Below are positions 56,828 to 64,000 of a DNA stretch of 64,000 nt, one piece after another. The stretch covers positions 124,001 to 188,000 of the forward strand of contig JACCXN010000057.1 in NCBI GenBank assembly GCA_013696965.1. Reading direction: 5' to 3'. The stretch is from Bacteroidota bacterium (lineage in GTDB: Bacteria > Bacteroidota > Bacteroidia > JACCXN01). Position numbers and translations under genes: made by a program. The notes beneath the pieces were generated by a model, which did not search any database, had not been told where the DNA came from, and saw only the letters and a program-made list of their open reading frames with translations. How positions within the stretch are numbered: position 1 is the first letter of the stretch; each line of letters begins with the position of its first letter.

Positions 56828-58672
56828 ATGAAAATTAAACTTTTATTTATTATTCCTTTATTCATTTTCTTTCAAAATCAATTTTCCTTTGCTCAAATAA
56901 AAAGTGAATCTTCTGGGATATTTGTTTTTGAAGGACTAGTTTATGGTTATGAAAATGATTCCTCAAGGAAATTATTTAAAAAAAACAAACAAACCGTACT
57001 GGAGGGACTTCTTGAAGGAGTGCAAATAAATGTTTACCAGAATAGTGAATTATCTTTTAAAACAGTTTCCGGTGCTAAAGGGGATTTTAAAATCACATTA
57101 AAACCAAATGTATTATATAAAGTCGAAGTTTTAAAAGAAGGTTATGATAATAACCTTCTTTACATTGACACTAAAGGTATTCCGGTTACAAACAAAAGTG
57201 ATGTTTATCTATTTTCAGATGCCGAATTTCTTTTAAACAGTTATAATAATAAGGCAAATGTAAATGAGCCTGTTGGAAGACTATTGTATAATCCTGATAG
57301 TGGTTATATGGAGTTAGAACTTAATGGAAATTCAGTTAAAAAATCAGGTAAAAAAAACGACCAGGACAATTTAATTGAATTAATGAAAAGGGCAGTGCTG
57401 AAAAACAAAATGGCAAATCAATCTGAAAAATTATCAAAACAAAAAAACCTAATTGTTCAGTCAAAAGATCAAATAAAAAATTTACCCCTTAAAGAAATCA
57501 AACCAGAGAAAGTTTTTTCTGAATTTCACTTGAAACCAATAGGTATACGGAATAATGATAAAAAAAATTTCAAGGAACGTATTTTAGATATTCGTCAAGC
57601 TAGGATGCAACTTGAATTGGACAGGGCTCAGGCTACAACAAAAGAGGACAGTCTGTTAATTGAACAAAGAGAAATAGTGATAAATTGGGCAGAGGCAGAA
57701 TTGAAGAGTGCAATTGTATTAATCAAAATACAAAAATCGAAATTAGAAATTCAAAACAAGGCACTGTATTTATCCTTATTGAGTTTATTGATGCTTCTAG
57801 TACTCTTTTTGTTTGCTTTTTGGCACTATAAGCACAAGGCAAAAATGAACCGATTGCTAATTAGGCAGAATCGAAGAATTCTTGATAGTATTAATTATGC
57901 CTGGCGTATTCAACAATCAGTCCTATTGAATGAAGATGAAATACATAAATTATTACCTGATTCGTTTATTTATTATCGCCCAAAGGATATAGTAAGTGGC
58001 GATTTTTATTGGCTCTCGGAAATAAATAACAGACTAATAATTGCTGTGGTTGATTGTACTGGTCATGGGGTACCAGGAGCATTTATGTCTTTAATTGGAA
58101 ATACTCTTTTAAATCAAATCATTAATGAAAAACAAATTACAGATCCGGCCTCTGTTTTAAAAGAATTACACAAGGGTGTGCTTAAAGCCCTTCGTCAGGA
58201 TAATAAGGAGAGCCTTTCTGAAGATGGCATGGAAATGTCAATTTGTGTTGTGGATCCAGTAAATAGTACCATGGAGTTTGCAGGGGCTATGAATCCAATT
58301 TATATTGTTACAGATGATAAGTTGCAGGTAATTAATGCAGATGTCAGATCAATTGGTGGAAAGAATCTGCGACTTGAAATGGAAAATCAAATTGAATTCA
58401 CAACAAAGAAGGTTTCTTTGGGTGAAAATACTTCTGTTTATATGTTTACTGATGGATATATGGATCAATTTGGAGGCAGGAACAATAAAAAATTCAATAC
58501 CATGAACTTTAAAAAATTGCTAATTGATATTCAGCATTTGGGAATGCAAGAACAAAAAATGGTAATACATAATACCATGGAGGATTGGAAAAAAGATAGA
58601 AACCAAATTGATGATATTTTAGTGGCTGGTTATAGCTTGGGAAAGCGACAAAAAAGTACAATTGAAAATTAA
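56828..58672 (+). CDS. SpoIIE/PP2C-type phosphatase with periplasmic sensor part (SiaA-like)
   Basis: 614 residues. Signal peptide (residues 1-22), a carboxypeptidase-regulatory-like beta domain (about 30-125, ending KVEVLKEGYDNNLLY), a long helical stretch, a membrane helix (313-335), then a cytoplasmic SpoIIE phosphatase from about residue 345. The catalytic aspartates are in VSGDFYWL, VDCTGHGVPGAFMSLIG and the C-terminal IDDILVAGY. In the Sia system SiaA is a phosphatase that removes phosphate from SiaC. It faces the siaC-siaB pair on the opposite strand (58711-60206), which supports a shared system. The periplasmic stimulus is unknown. Confidence 0.88.
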   Translation: MKIKLLFIIPLFIFFQNQFSFAQIKSESSGIFVFEGLVYGYENDSSRKLFKKNKQTVLEGLLEGVQINVYQNSELSFKTVSGAKGDFKITLKPNVLYKVEVLKEGYDNNLLYIDTKGIPVTNKSDVYLFSDAEFLLNSYNNKANVNEPVGRLLYNPDSGYMELELNGNSVKKSGKKNDQDNLIELMKRAVLKNKMANQSEKLSKQKNLIVQSKDQIKNLPLKEIKPEKVFSEFHLKPIGIRNNDKKNFKERILDIRQARMQLELDRAQATTKEDSLLIEQREIVINWAEAELKSAIVLIKIQKSKLEIQNKALYLSLLSLLMLLVLFLFAFWHYKHKAKMNRLLIRQNRRILDSINYAWRIQQSVLLNEDEIHKLLPDSFIYYRPKDIVSGDFYWLSEINNRLIIAVVDCTGHGVPGAFMSLIGNTLLNQIINEKQITDPASVLKELHKGVLKALRQDNKESLSEDGMEMSICVVDPVNSTMEFAGAMNPIYIVTDDKLQVINADVRSIGGKNLRLEMENQIEFTTKKVSLGENTSVYMFTDGYMDQFGGRNNKKFNTMNFKKLLIDIQHLGMQEQKMVIHNTMEDWKKDRNQIDDILVAGYSLGKRQKSTIEN

Positions 58673-58710
58673 AATGGAATTATTTTTATTGAGAGGAATT
58701 TGAAATTTTT

Positions 58711-59091
58711 TTATTCAATTATTTTTAAATGGAATGGAATTTTCAAAATGCTTTTTATTTCCTGGCCCTTGATTTCCATTAGTTCATCATCCTGATTATA
58801 AAACCAGGTAATACTAACTTTACCACCGTTTTTTACTACTTTCTCCAATGTAATAAGTATTTTTAATACCTGTTTAACAGAACCGGAATTAAAATATTCT
58901 AAATTAATATTAAAATCAGTAAAGGACGAAGGCTCGTTTGCATAGTTTCTCATCCAGTTTAGAGCTGTCTCATAAAATTTTTCAGCATCCTCTGGCAGAG
59001 ATCGGCCACTTATCTCGAATTTCATTTTTTCCTTATCCAAAACTACTTTAGGAGTATCTTCCGTAGCGTCAAAATAAATTGCTTTTTCCAT
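58711..59091 (-). CDS. SiaC-type partner-switch protein (DUF1987)
   Basis: 126 residues. Matches DUF1987: KAIYFDATEDTPKVVLDKEK start and FNINLEYFNSGSVKQVLKIL. In Pseudomonas SiaC the phosphorylated threonine sits in the loop after LEYFN; here Ser69 or Ser71 (NSGS) is the likely site. It shares an operon with the siaB-like gene (11 nt spacing). In Pseudomonas, unphosphorylated SiaC activates the diguanylate cyclase SiaD; no such enzyme is near here. Confidence 0.85.
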   Translation of the reverse strand: MEKAIYFDATEDTPKVVLDKEKMKFEISGRSLPEDAEKFYETALNWMRNYANEPSSFTDFNINLEYFNSGSVKQVLKILITLEKVVKNGGKVSITWFYNQDDELMEIKGQEIKSILKIPFHLKIIE

Positions 59092-59102
59092 TAATAAAGT
59101 AG

Positions 59103-60206
59103 TTATAAAGTAATGTTTAATGAAAAAAAGGATGATTCATCATTTATAGAAAAAAAATCATAATCTATTTCTGAATTGCTATTTCTAAAAATATCGATTA
59201 GCCCTAAGCCTGCCCCCCCTTTTAATCCTGGTTTTTTATCCAATAGATTATGTTTATATAATTCTGATAAACTTTCCTTGCTACGATTTTTGAGATTATC
59301 TAATTTTTTCTGTAGTTCACTTACTTTCTTATTGTCAACAATGTTGCCTGCACTAATAAAATATCCATTGCCTTTAATTCCTATAATAATTATCCCTTCA
59401 CAGTTTTCTTTAATCTTTTTACCATGTTTACTGATGTTTTGAAGCAATTCAACTAGCACGTAATAAACTTTTTTCATTTTCCCAATATTACCGGTTTGAT
59501 TCAAATTATGTTCAATCATACCTAAAATAGGAAGAATAGTTTCTTGAGAAAAATTTCCTTTATATGCAAGCAGAATATTATCTGAATACATAATATCATG
59601 TATTTCTTTAGTATGACTTAGGGGAAATATGAGTGGGTTTTTTTCTTCAGGGCTTGTTTTAGATTTTAACTTTAATTGTAAATGGAAAAGGGAAAGAAAG
59701 TAATTTACAAATTCAAAATCAAAAGTAATTGGATGTCCACTTTTCCGGGCCATTTCTATAATTCCAAGTCCGGCACCACCTTTTTCAGAATAACTTTCAT
59801 TGGTAAGAACTTCTAAATACAATTCTTTGAGTTCAGCCTTTTCTAATTTATTTACAATATCTAATTGTCCCTTTATTCGCTCAATCTTGGTATTTTCAAT
59901 TAAATTAGTAGAGCTAATGTAAATGGTGTTTTCAATATTTCTTACCAAAAACATTTCGGGTAAATTGTTTGTTCTGTTTTTGATTTTTGGTTTATCACTA
60001 TGGTGAATAATATTTTGAAAACATTCAGCCATTAAAAAGGAAACTGTATTGTTTAATTTTGATATTTCAGGAATATTATTGATGTTAAATTCACTTAACC
60101 GAAGTAAATTTTCAGTAATATTTTCATTGAAATCTGCCTGATAAACAAATGTGGAACTATCCTTTTCCAATTGCTTAAAAAAAGCAAAAAACACTTTAGG
60201 TTTCAT
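59103..60206 (-). CDS. SiaB-type serine kinase, tandem duplicated (DUF6272)
   Basis: 367 residues, about twice the normal length of SiaB. Two copies of the same GHKL-like kinase domain. The first (about 1-180) has the N-box MAECFQNIIHH (Glu61, Asn65) and G-box SEKGGAGLGIIEMARKSG. The second (about 200-367) has LVELLQNISKHGKK and LKGGAGLGLIDIFRNS. Both boxes are intact in both copies. Likely phosphorylates SiaC. Upstream of the siaC-like gene in one operon; the SpoIIE phosphatase faces it. Confidence 0.85.
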   Translation of the reverse strand: MKPKVFFAFFKQLEKDSSTFVYQADFNENITENLLRLSEFNINNIPEISKLNNTVSFLMAECFQNIIHHSDKPKIKNRTNNLPEMFLVRNIENTIYISSTNLIENTKIERIKGQLDIVNKLEKAELKELYLEVLTNESYSEKGGAGLGIIEMARKSGHPITFDFEFVNYFLSLFHLQLKLKSKTSPEEKNPLIFPLSHTKEIHDIMYSDNILLAYKGNFSQETILPILGMIEHNLNQTGNIGKMKKVYYVLVELLQNISKHGKKIKENCEGIIIIGIKGNGYFISAGNIVDNKKVSELQKKLDNLKNRSKESLSELYKHNLLDKKPGLKGGAGLGLIDIFRNSNSEIDYDFFSINDESSFFSLNITL

Positions 60207-60358: not shown

Positions 60359-61480
60359 TTAATTATTTAACATTATGGGCATAACAAGCATTAGAATGTC
60401 TTCTTCAGGAGAGTCACTATTTGCAGGTGTTAGTATCCCTGCTCTGTTTGGGGCAGACATTTCAATGTTAACTTGTTCCGAATCAAGGTTATTCAGCATT
60501 TCCATCAGGAATTTAGAATTAAAGCCAATTTCCATATCCTCGCCATCATACTGACATGTTAATCTTTCTGTGGCTTCATTTGCAAAATCAAGATCCTCAG
60601 CTGAAACCTGTAATTCACTTCCCGTCATTTTTAATCTTACCTGATGGGTGGTTTTATTGGAAAATATCCCTACCCTTCGAATTGAACTTAAAAAGGAAGC
60701 ACGATCAATTGTTAATTTGTTTGGATTCTCCTTAGGAATTACAGCCTCATAATTTGGATATTTTCCATCAATCAACCTGCAAATAAGGTTTATATTGGCA
60801 AATGAAAAGAATGCGTTTGAATTATTGTATTCTATGCTTACATTAGTATCTTCATTTTGAAGCAAGTTTTTAAGCAGGTTTAAAGGTTTTTTAGGTAAAA
60901 TGAAGGAAGTGTTTTTGTCTGACTTAGCATCGGTTCTGCTGTATCTAACTAGTTTGTGGGCATCGGTTGCAACAAAAATAAGATTTTCACTAGATAACAT
61001 GCAATAAACCCCAGACATAACAGGTCTTAATTCATCATTTCCACTTGCAAAAATTGTTTTATTTATTCCATTGGCTAAAACAGATGAATTTATAGTAAGT
61101 GAGTTTGGTGATTCAATAGTTGGAAGCCTGGGAAATTCTTCACCATCATGTCCTGTAAGTTTATATTTTCCAAAATCAGATCCTATTTCTATTCCGTTTG
61201 TTTTATCCTGTATTGTAAATGTTAGTGGTTGTTCCGGAAAAGCCTTTAATGTTTCCATTAATAGCCTGGCAGGAATCGCAATTTTTCCTTTATCCTTGGC
61301 CTCTACAGGAAGCGAGGTGCTCATTGTGGTTTCCAGATCAGAGGCTGATATTACCAGTTCATTCTCTTTAATTTCAAATAAGAAATTATCGAGAATCGGC
61401 AAGGTATTGCTAGAGTTTAAAACACCGCTAATATTTTGTAGCTGCTTTAATAATGTCATGCTGGAGACAATGAATTTCAT
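60359..61480 (-). CDS. dnaN: DNA polymerase III subunit beta (sliding clamp)
   Basis: 373 residues. Three repeated clamp domains, each about 120 residues. Seen: MKFIVSSMTLLKQLQNISGV (domain 1), ASGNDELRPVMSGVYCML (domain 2), DGKYPNYEAVIPKENPNKL (domain 3 start), and the conserved C-terminal LMVMPIML-N that forms the partner pocket. Start at 61480; a TATCTTTG box lies about 100 nt upstream. Not adjacent to dnaA, as is common in Bacteroidota. Confidence 0.97.
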   Translation of the reverse strand: MKFIVSSMTLLKQLQNISGVLNSSNTLPILDNFLFEIKENELVISASDLETTMSTSLPVEAKDKGKIAIPARLLMETLKAFPEQPLTFTIQDKTNGIEIGSDFGKYKLTGHDGEEFPRLPTIESPNSLTINSSVLANGINKTIFASGNDELRPVMSGVYCMLSSENLIFVATDAHKLVRYSRTDAKSDKNTSFILPKKPLNLLKNLLQNEDTNVSIEYNNSNAFFSFANINLICRLIDGKYPNYEAVIPKENPNKLTIDRASFLSSIRRVGIFSNKTTHQVRLKMTGSELQVSAEDLDFANEATERLTCQYDGEDMEIGFNSKFLMEMLNNLDSEQVNIEMSAPNRAGILTPANSDSPEEDILMLVMPIMLNN

Positions 61481-61579
61481 ATGTTTTTATATTGAAAGTT
61501 AGTTTTTCCTTTAATGATTTACTAGTTCATTACTTTTTAATATTCAAAGAATTGATTTAAGTAAATATTTATTGGGGAA

Positions 61580-61587
61580 CAAAGATA
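61580..61587 (-). promoter_or_regulatory. Predicted promoter box of dnaN (TATCTTTG)
   Basis: Reverse-strand TATCTTTG about 100 nt before the dnaN ATG. Confidence 0.4.
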
Positions 61588-61713
61588 TGGTATTTGAAAC
61601 AGGATATAATAGTAAAGAATTAACTTTTCCAACTACTTTTTAACAATTCTGAAAGTAAGTTTTATATAGGTGGGATATATATTAAATCAGGAATAATTGT
61701 TTAATAAATTATC

Positions 61714-62739
61714 CTATAACCTTTTAACAGTATCCTGATTTAAAAAATAATTGATCCTGGGAGTTAATTCATTAAAAACAAAGAACTGGATAATAACAAA
61801 ATCTTTTTCATTTGTAAGTCCATACATTCTGTCCATATCAAAAGTAATAGGATTTCCTTCAAGATCGGTTGATCCTTCTTTCATTGGTTTATTGTATCCT
61901 GTAAAAGAATTTACTTTTCCATGAATATCAGTTATCTCAATACTGAAATTTTTGCAAAAATCCATGATTGAATCTTTTGTTGTGAGTGGGGTATCGTTGG
62001 CATAAAATTCGAAGTTGATATGCCTGAAATTACTCACAAATTGAATAATGGAAAGGGTGTCAATTTTTTCAAGGTATTTATTATCCTGAATAGATTTTAA
62101 CCTAGGCTTACGGGTGCTAATATTTTCAATAGCAAAAGATTCTTCAGGTGATTTCACATAATTAATTTCAATTTTTTCTATTTCATTGGGATTGTACCTG
62201 TACAAAGCAGTTGATTTCCATTCGGTTTCATCAATAAAATACCTGGAACTGAGGTATCCTCGGTGACCAGGTATAAACATTACAAATGGTACTGATGAAT
62301 TTTCCAATAACATGAAAGTGCCCATATTATCAGGAGTAGCTCCACCAACATAATAAACTTTAGCTGGTTTGTCTTTACCCATGTAAATTTCAATTTTAGT
62401 TGAATTACCTGCCATATTTGAAACAACATGGTCAAGAGAAGCCCTTGAAACAGGAGATTTTACCTCTAGTTGGCTAATTGTATTAAGTAATAAATCAATA
62501 CCGTCTTTTCTTGCCTCTGCATTTCCATTAACCGTCCAGATGCTATTGGTTTTTCTTTCCAGTGTTACTGTTCTTCCAATACCATCAGCCATAAAAATTT
62601 TGGAAACATTAGCAGTATCTTTTACAGCAAAATCTTTCAGCTCTTTTTTAATTGTTCCTGTTTTATTATTAAACCATAAATAACCAGCAACAATGCTTAA
62701 TACAAGGACAATAATTAAGGTAATTCTGTTTTTTTTCAT
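61714..62739 (-). CDS. DUF4340 domain protein
   Basis: 341 residues. An N-terminal membrane helix (ITLIIVLVLSIVAGYLWF), then DUF4340-type repeats: DTANVSKIFMADGIGRTVTL with WTVNGNAEARKDGIDLLLNT and a later SSRYFIDETEWKSTALYRY. Common next to gldG in gliding-motility or ABC-export loci. It lies 64 nt downstream of gldG, suggesting co-transcription. Probably periplasmic, membrane-anchored; function unknown. Confidence 0.9.
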   Translation of the reverse strand: MKKNRITLIIVLVLSIVAGYLWFNNKTGTIKKELKDFAVKDTANVSKIFMADGIGRTVTLERKTNSIWTVNGNAEARKDGIDLLLNTISQLEVKSPVSRASLDHVVSNMAGNSTKIEIYMGKDKPAKVYYVGGATPDNMGTFMLLENSSVPFVMFIPGHRGYLSSRYFIDETEWKSTALYRYNPNEIEKIEINYVKSPEESFAIENISTRKPRLKSIQDNKYLEKIDTLSIIQFVSNFRHINFEFYANDTPLTTKDSIMDFCKNFSIEITDIHGKVNSFTGYNKPMKEGSTDLEGNPITFDMDRMYGLTNEKDFVIIQFFVFNELTPRINYFLNQDTVKRL

Positions 62740-62803
62740 GATATTTTTTAAGAGCTATAAAAGCATTATTTAGAAATCGGTTTTCAATAATCCAAAAATA
62801 AAA

Positions 62804-64000
62804 TCAGGAGTATTTTCTTTTTCTGATATAAAAGAGTATAATTCCAGCAAACAAAACAATAATAACAGGTAGAACAGTATTTAGTAATTGCCAGAATGTT
62901 CTTTCAACTTTAATTCTTTCAGAATCAAGCAGTCTCAATTTAAATTCTTTTGAACGAGCACCTATAATCCCTGAATCATCACAAAGGTAATTCATGGCAT
63001 TTAATATAAATGTTTTGTTTGAGTAAATTTCTCCTGTAAACCTGTCGTAACCCAAGGGATAAACATTTCCAGTTGATTTTTGTATTGAATTTTTGATAAT
63101 ATTTCCGCTTCCGACTACAATCATTTTAGTTGGTTGGCTTTTATCTTTAAACTTAATATCCTCACTTTCCATAACCTCAGGTGTAATTCTGTTGGTAAAT
63201 GCTGATTCAAATTCACCTTCAAGAAGATAGGACACAGGTTGGAATGATTTGTTGAATTGCTCGGCTTTGGGTTCTTCTCTTAAGGAATTGATACTTATTC
63301 TAACTGGTGCATTAAGCAGTTTTGTATATTTTGAAGTATGAAGCAAAGGGGTTTTCTTTATCCCTGGGGCACTAACAGTATCAATGCTACTGATGAATTC
63401 AACACGAAGTGCATTAAGGTTATTTACAATAGGGTGATTGCTCTGGGGCATAAGCAATGGAAAATAAAACCACGGAAAAAGTTTTTGCTGGGGTTGATTG
63501 CCTATATATCCAGTAACAACTGGAATAGGAGCAGCCTGCAAATCCTGAACTAAATTGTTATTTATTCGAATGCCATACCTGAAAAGCTGATCATCAAGAT
63601 TTAATTCTTTGGCAATTGCAAAAGTCATTTTATTCGTAGAAAGACTATCCATTATTGCATCAACAGGATTAATCAGCCAAAGGACTTTTCCTCCCCTCAT
63701 GATAAATTGGTCAATAATAAATTTGTCTTTTTCAGAAAAAGCAGAATCCGGATTAGCAATAATAATTGCACTTATTCCTTTAAGACTGTTAAGCTTCTCT
63801 GCAATTTTAATTCTTTTCACATCGTAATATTCCGACAATGCCCTAGTAGCATCCTTAACTTCAGTTTCATCAAGTTCCCCATGTCCCTCAATAAATGCAA
63901 TACTTGGTTTTGATTCATCACTCAGTTTTTTTATAGTATTTGCAATTTCATATTCGAGTTGTTGTTCAGAAATATTAAGCATTTGTTCCGGAGAAGCACC
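62804..64000 (-). CDS. gldG: Gliding-motility ABC protein GldG (C-terminal part, runs off right edge)
   Basis: 399 codons are visible, open to the window edge (upstream codons read GASPEQ before the ATG at 63982, so that ATG is internal). The GIFT/ABC-type extracytoplasmic part is visible: SIAFIEGHGELDE, AIIIANPDSAFSEKDKFIID and WLINPVDAIMDSL. It ends with a membrane helix (LPVIIVLFAGIILFYI) and a short basic tail. Matches GldG, which works with GldF (ABC permease) and GldA in gliding and is needed for T9SS-type motility. The missing first part is outside the window. gldF is expected just beyond the right edge. Confidence 0.9.
   Translation of the reverse strand, partial: GASPEQMLNISEQQLEYEIANTIKKLSDESKPSIAFIEGHGELDETEVKDATRALSEYYDVKRIKIAEKLNSLKGISAIIIANPDSAFSEKDKFIIDQFIMRGGKVLWLINPVDAIMDSLSTNKMTFAIAKELNLDDQLFRYGIRINNNLVQDLQAAPIPVVTGYIGNQPQQKLFPWFYFPLLMPQSNHPIVNNLNALRVEFISSIDTVSAPGIKKTPLLHTSKYTKLLNAPVRISINSLREEPKAEQFNKSFQPVSYLLEGEFESAFTNRITPEVMESEDIKFKDKSQPTKMIVVGSGNIIKNSIQKSTGNVYPLGYDRFTGEIYSNKTFILNAMNYLCDDSGIIGARSKEFKLRLLDSERIKVERTFWQLLNTVLPVIIVLFAGIILFYIRKRKYS

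Follow-up and report, generated by a model that had tools for sequence, protein, structure and literature searches.

A stretch of 64,000 nucleotides from a Bacteroidota bacterium (NCBI GenBank assembly GCA_013696965.1, contig JACCXN010000057.1, positions 124,001 to 188,000; hereafter the window, and its source the window genome) carries, between positions 56,828 and 60,206, three genes that probably encode a SiaA-SiaB-SiaC partner switch in which two kinase units have become covalently paired and the output has been exchanged. In Pseudomonas, the SiaA-SiaB-SiaC switch turns on the production of cyclic di-GMP (c-di-GMP), and to our knowledge SiaABC has been known only as a c-di-GMP device. The general kind of system is thus already familiar; what is new here is the tandem kinase, together with a portable SiaC-docking stalk that is found on varied outputs in other classes of Bacteroidota. 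A literature search, with most subscription journals outside its scope, returned nothing on a tandem kinase, on a portable stalk, or on any output of SiaC besides SiaD.

Components of the tandem module

The module consists of the following three genes:

56828..58672, + strand: SiaA-like SpoIIE phosphatase, 614 amino acids (Pfam SpoIIE, 66.8 bits; cut-off, 25)
58711..59091, - strand: SiaC-like carrier (DUF1987, PF09345), 126 amino acids (Pfam, 119.5 bits; cut-off, 24.5)
59103..60206, - strand: tandem SiaB-family kinase, 367 amino acids (two DUF6272 stretches, 210.9 bits; cut-off, 26.6)

An earlier note, made from the sequence alone, had given coordinates and calls for these genes that prove correct, the SpoIIE, SiaC and two-domain DUF6272 assignments all lying over the Pfam cut-offs. 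The kinase and carrier genes form an operon, with 11 nucleotides from the SiaB stop to the SiaC start, that is convergent with the phosphatase gene, tail to tail, the stop codons being 38 nucleotides apart. In NCBIfam, the kinase is recognized as a "SiaB family protein kinase" (NF038262; 234.9 bits against a cut-off of 85), and SiaA is the sole family named for the phosphatase, over its phosphatase part only; scores fall below the strict equivalog cut-offs for SiaA (181 against 700 bits), SiaB (109 against 225), and SiaC (71 against 150).

An AlphaFold2 model of the kinase comprises two GHKL domains (predicted local distance difference test, pLDDT, 80.8; predicted template modelling score, pTM, 0.81), and a Foldseek search of solved structures matches it best to the SiaB chain of the P. 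aeruginosa SiaB-SiaC complex (6kko; template modelling (TM) score 0.88 by target), with SpoIIAB and RsbW ranking lower. Likewise, the closest solved fold to the PP2C domain of the phosphatase is P. aeruginosa SiaA (6k4e; TM score, 0.91), and the SiaA/SiaB/SiaC logic proposed in the earlier note is borne out by these two resemblances. So is the doubling of the kinase, as two DUF6272/GHKL domains are present in one 367-residue chain, with the following halves and motifs:

59667..60188, - strand: N-terminal kinase half (N-half), residues 7-180
60000..60026, - strand: N-box of the N-half, E61...N65...H69, with Q64 also present; E, Q, and N in 91 of 91 tandems
59907..59909, - strand: Thr100, at the glycine position of the G1-like [ST]xGN motif of the N-half
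59763..59780, - strand: G2 box of the N-half, GGAGLG, residues 143-148; glycines in 91 of 91 tandems
59109..59609, - strand: C-terminal kinase half (C-half), residues 200-366
59424..59450, - strand: N-box of the C-half, E253...N257...H261
59343..59354, - strand: G1-like motif of the C-half, SAGN, residues 285-288, intact
59202..59222, - strand: G2 box of the C-half, KGGAGLG, residues 329-335, intact in the window and eroded in many relatives

The related claim that each half retains intact N- and G-boxes holds for both N-boxes and both G2 boxes and fails at the G1 glycine of the N-half, which is replaced by Thr100. A strict reading of the G-boxes, in which the N-half would be dead, was set aside, since this glycine varies among single SiaB proteins too; it is present in 48 of 91 N-halves, 78 of 91 C-halves, and 58 of 66 single SiaB proteins. 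The two halves have nevertheless diverged unequally, the N-half being under strong constraint and the C-half less so: N-half identity exceeds C-half identity in 95% of tandem pairs (means of 0.41 and 0.33, respectively), and across the 91 tandems the first two glycines of the C-half G2 loop are kept in 26 and 42, with the GxG core kept in 82 and 89. Such unequal constraint may reflect halves that have specialised in function. As SiaB of P. aeruginosa is dimeric (PMC7278518), the fused pair is most simply read as an obligate dimer.

At somewhat less than an even chance, one half may be catalytic and the other regulatory (nucleotide-sensing or a pseudokinase), in which case the output of the kinase would report the ATP/ADP state. 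The unequal conservation of the halves points in this direction, as do the invariant N-box and G2 box of the N-half set beside the eroded C-half loop, and the loss of the G1 glycine from the N-half in nearly half of the tandems; nevertheless, every motif is intact in the C-half of the window kinase, and the variability of single SiaB proteins at the G1 glycine again tempers the argument. Such a division of labour refines rather than excludes the reading of the locus as a covalently paired kinase with an exchanged output.

The carrier of the window matches the SiaC chains of 6kko and 6k4f, and alignments place its candidate phosphoacceptor at the position that is phosphorylated in P. aeruginosa SiaC (Thr68):

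58885..58887, - strand: Ser69 of SiaC

The phosphosite is Ser or Thr in 68 of 68 tandem-linked SiaC proteins.

The phosphatase combines an N-terminal signal-like segment, a beta-rich sensor, a coiled-coil, one membrane helix, and the SpoIIE/PP2C domain, of which three parts were mapped:

56897..57418, + strand: predicted periplasmic sensor, residues 24-197, which is beta-rich in a model that has moderate confidence over this part
57755..57811, + strand: membrane helix, residues 310-328, within a long helix that enters the phosphatase (hydropathy and model)
57962..58639, + strand: PP2C/SpoIIE catalytic domain, with GDFYW (391), DCTGHG (409), TDGY (541), and DDILV (595) all present

The sensor had been described in the earlier note as a carboxypeptidase-regulatory-like domain; a match is indeed present at residues 62-108 (E 0.00096), albeit a weak one that lies under the curated Pfam cut-off (19.9 against 32.3 bits). 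The sensor part has no match to the SiaA model. Among the phosphatases collected, seven homologues of the window sensor (residues 1-335) were found, exclusively at tandem loci; six stand beside SiaC (L184, L187, L201, L206, L224, and L242), and the seventh is at L203, where SiaC was not called.

Compared with SiaABCD of P. aeruginosa, the module shares a PP2C phosphatase with a periplasmic sensor, a GHKL Ser/Thr kinase, and a DUF1987 carrier, all with matching folds, as well as a phosphoacceptor at the equivalent of position 68 (although Ser in the window), whereas the fused kinase pair and the order and orientation of the genes set it apart. The logic of a GHKL kinase, a STAS-like carrier, and a PP2C phosphatase is also that of SpoIIAB-SpoIIAA-SpoIIE and RsbW-RsbV-RsbU, but these belong to different sequence families, and no sigma factor partner was identified in the window system.

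Output of the switch

In class Bacteroidia, SiaABC as a rule occurs without c-di-GMP. The window genome (3.86 Mb, with an estimated completeness of 100%) has no GGDEF domain, in a search that was positive for 8 of 14 control genomes; this absence, like the other genome-wide absences reported here, rests on profile searches. Nor was a GGDEF domain found in any of the seven individually checked same-class genomes with SiaB. Among 299 genomes of a related order (apparently Flavobacteriales), SiaB-family domains occur in 244 and GGDEF over the cut-off in 5.

Unphosphorylated SiaC binds two motifs in the stalk of SiaD, and at the second of these SiaC T68 contacts S82 and Q86 (PMC8457831). In other Bacteroidota classes, which have the SiaB-SiaC pair in common with the window, the gene after SiaC carries an N-terminal stalk of ~80 residues (EYxxLxxxYxxLLxQxxKITRISDxTQxKL); in 17 of 20 loci, the stalk gene is the first or second gene from SiaC, and the stalk is joined to GGDEF, class III nucleotide cyclase, HisKA-HATPase, or SpoIIE domains or else stands alone. 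Searched against 177,635 PDB sequences, the stalk profile matched SiaD of P. aeruginosa best; this match was weak (E 0.0014, with a designed coiled coil next at 0.0021) but aligned exactly on the two SiaC-binding motifs of SiaD, RISDGFQ and RISDRYQQMMR. Examples of stalk genes directly after SiaC are found at L100 (4997-5758), L086 (6794-7861), L081 (7091-8152), L083 (6967-8013), and L091 (5709-5963).

By profile, the stalk (ISDxxQ) was not found in the window genome, where the best E was 0.54, or in 17 other Bacteroidia genomes, while the five control genomes, which had contributed stalks to the profile, returned E values of 1e-24 to 1e-32. Several candidate carriers were considered and rejected: short SpoIIE proteins that are co-directional after SiaC (L202, L207, L209, and L218) lack the stalk; the N-terminal INxxLxQK helix of a TerB-ABC transporter (see below) is similar but, by eye, out of register and inside the TerB domain; and the SpoIIE linker ITDSINYAxRIQ is no relative, given that stalk-SpoIIE proteins have both the stalk and, apart from it, an equivalent linker.

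The SiaC proteins of Bacteroidia retain the docking core Y65-N67-S/T68, and two stalk-contact positions (as defined in PMC8457831) have changed. At position 29, P. aeruginosa has an acidic residue and stalk-bearing lineages mostly have an acidic or polar one, but most Bacteroidia have Arg or Lys; position 31 has gone from Tyr/Phe to mostly Ile/Leu. Both the changed contacts and the missing SiaD or stalk protein distinguish the window system from that of P. aeruginosa. Since the absence of a stalk partner and the change of the stalk-contact residues agree, the output of SiaC appears to have been replaced in Bacteroidia.

It is accordingly very improbable, and close to refuted, that SiaC continues to activate a diguanylate cyclase of SiaD type whose gene lies at some other place in the genome. 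Such a partner would be suggested by SiaABCD, the only characterised system, and by the diguanylate cyclases that adjoin SiaC in a related Bacteroidota family, but the GGDEF counts given above and the missing stalk protein speak strongly against it. The statement of the earlier note that no SiaD lies beside the module is therefore upheld and extends to the whole genome, and its suggestion that SiaC acts on something other than SiaD gains support. Outright loss of the output, with a module that merely buffers phosphorylation or decays, is hardly credible: no target is identifiable, but the catalytic motifs are intact, and gene order and phosphosite are conserved class-wide.

With an exchanged output as the preferred reading, the switch may be envisaged as follows. 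The tandem kinase would phosphorylate SiaC at Ser69, as homology and conservation suggest; an envelope signal perceived via the beta-rich sensor would be relayed along the membrane-spanning helix to activate the SpoIIE phosphatase, leading to dephosphorylation of SiaC; and free SiaC would then dock on a target that is neither a diguanylate cyclase nor a carrier of a SiaD-type stalk. Fusion of the two SiaB units would make the dimer obligatory and let the halves specialise.

Spread of the tandem module

Relatives of the tandem kinase were collected by scanning GTDB contigs, the query being an alignment of eight tandems; this gave >500 relatives, and both halves are spanned in all of the best 80, which were fetched. 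Bacteroidales, Marinilabiliales, Salinivirgaceae, Flavobacteriales, Crocinitomicaceae, Sphingobacteriaceae, and Cytophagales (e.g., Nafulsella and Cesiribacter) are represented among these 80. Nafulsella turpanensis and a Cesiribacter species carry all three genes of the module (L187 and L206). Chance or misassembly as the source of the doubled kinase was rejected, as 80 other loci carry the doubling, and the isolated departure implied by the earlier note gives way to a broader picture in which the doubled SiaB is widespread in class Bacteroidia, as is the lack of SiaD. In a domain tree of eight tandems, the N-halves form one clade (100/99) and the C-halves another (98/95), as expected from a single origin of the tandem.

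SiaC lies directly downstream of tandem SiaB in 60 of 74 testable loci, mostly within ~15 nucleotides, and the SiaC tree groups by module type: the tandem label changes 3 times, compared with 43 times expected from shuffling. Because gene order is conserved, the collected homologues of the sensor occur at tandem loci only, and SiaC clusters by module, it is concluded that the SiaA-, SiaBB-, and SiaC-type genes travel as a unit. Further arrangements include a natural fusion of tandem SiaB with SiaC in a single 518-residue chain (L252, 2331-3884), a partial fusion of the same kind (L259), and paired tandem SiaB genes nearby each other, mostly without a recognised SiaC (L185, L211, L221, L225, and L240).

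A transporter beside single SiaB-SiaC modules and the genomic setting

Three SiaC and two SiaB genes, one tandem and one single, are present in the window genome. The single SiaB-SiaC pairs of the class, including that on contig C60 of the window genome, adjoin a protein of ~1025 amino acids that unites TerB, ABC ATPase, and ABC-2 membrane domains (TerB-ABC); on C60, this protein has 1025 amino acids and is located at L036, 10157-13234, next to the single SiaB-SiaC. The single modules resemble the tandem module in that SiaB adjoins SiaC, GGDEF is absent, and SpoIIE is nearby, but they differ in having one kinase domain, the TerB-ABC neighbour, and a Thr phosphoacceptor in 39 of 41 cases.

Within the related order, the N-terminal region of TerB-ABC was found in 193 of 244 SiaB-positive and 2 of 55 SiaB-negative genomes (counts read from tables by eye; Fisher p 5e-27, uncorrected for relatedness). 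Adjacency (<4 kb) was recorded for 29 pairs over eight families, co-directional as well as convergent, and with two more from families f1 and f9, some 10 families of the class have TerB-ABC next to SiaB-SiaC. A profile of the stretch that separates the TerB and ABC domains returned a single PDB sequence below E 1, a weak and partial match (E 0.015) to an entry annotated as the kinase MEK1, which we take to be a phosphothreonine-binding FHA domain. On the strength of the genomic association, the TerB-ABC transporter is most likely the target of the single-SiaB module in the window genome and the class.

Whether the window SiaC acts on the same transporter, so that two kinase modules would serve one output, must also be weighed. 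Adjacency in both orientations over so many families, the tracking of SiaB presence, and the presumed FHA domain would fit a shared target. This seems unlikely, however, as SiaC groups separate by module, the match to MEK1 is weak and partial and the FHA role putative, and no tandem locus examined has a TerB-ABC neighbour, because of which TerB-ABC need not be the target of the window SiaC.

Several observations nevertheless weigh against a paired kinase with an exchanged output. The stalk could have diverged beyond the reach of the profile, and the co-occurrence of SiaB and TerB-ABC is partly shared ancestry; the want of a TerB-ABC gene beside the tandem loci belongs here as well. Moreover, since a SpoIIE gene follows SiaC in just 22 of 53 testable tandem loci (mostly convergent, as in the window), pairing with a phosphatase is not universal, and any of the 28 SpoIIE domains of the genome could act on SiaC.

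More broadly, and tentatively, SiaABC may be a general switch of exchangeable output, in which SiaC docks on a portable stalk that is placed on cyclases, kinases, or phosphatases; following the loss of c-di-GMP and stalk, Bacteroidia would have rewired it (to TerB-ABC for the single module and to another target for the tandem), with the tandem kinase an obligate dimer of unequal halves. Conservation of SiaABC without GGDEF and with a fused kinase pair, alongside a stalk on four enzyme types in sister classes, would turn a Pseudomonas biofilm operon into what is likely a general signalling adaptor, which bears on the role of SiaC in bacteria without c-di-GMP and on the function of DUF1987 and DUF6272 proteins, which are widespread in Bacteroidota.

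As for the genomic setting, the 28 SpoIIE phosphatase domains of the 3.86-Mb genome compare with its two SiaB kinase genes and three SiaC. The third, orphan SiaC, on contig C74 (L037, 9341-9733), has Ile at the phosphosite position (FFNITSSK) and is thus probably not switchable at the canonical residue. A scan for promoters and terminators at the locus yielded nothing that exceeded shuffles. Upstream of the tandem kinase and on the same strand, positions 60359-64000 of the window hold what we take to be dnaN and a gliding ABC locus of GldG-type appearance. In a same-family genome, a single SiaB-SiaC pair stands beside genes that we read as rpsT-like and radC-like and that also adjoin the tandem module in genome G047 (loci L097, 5725-6668, and L075, 4720-8301).

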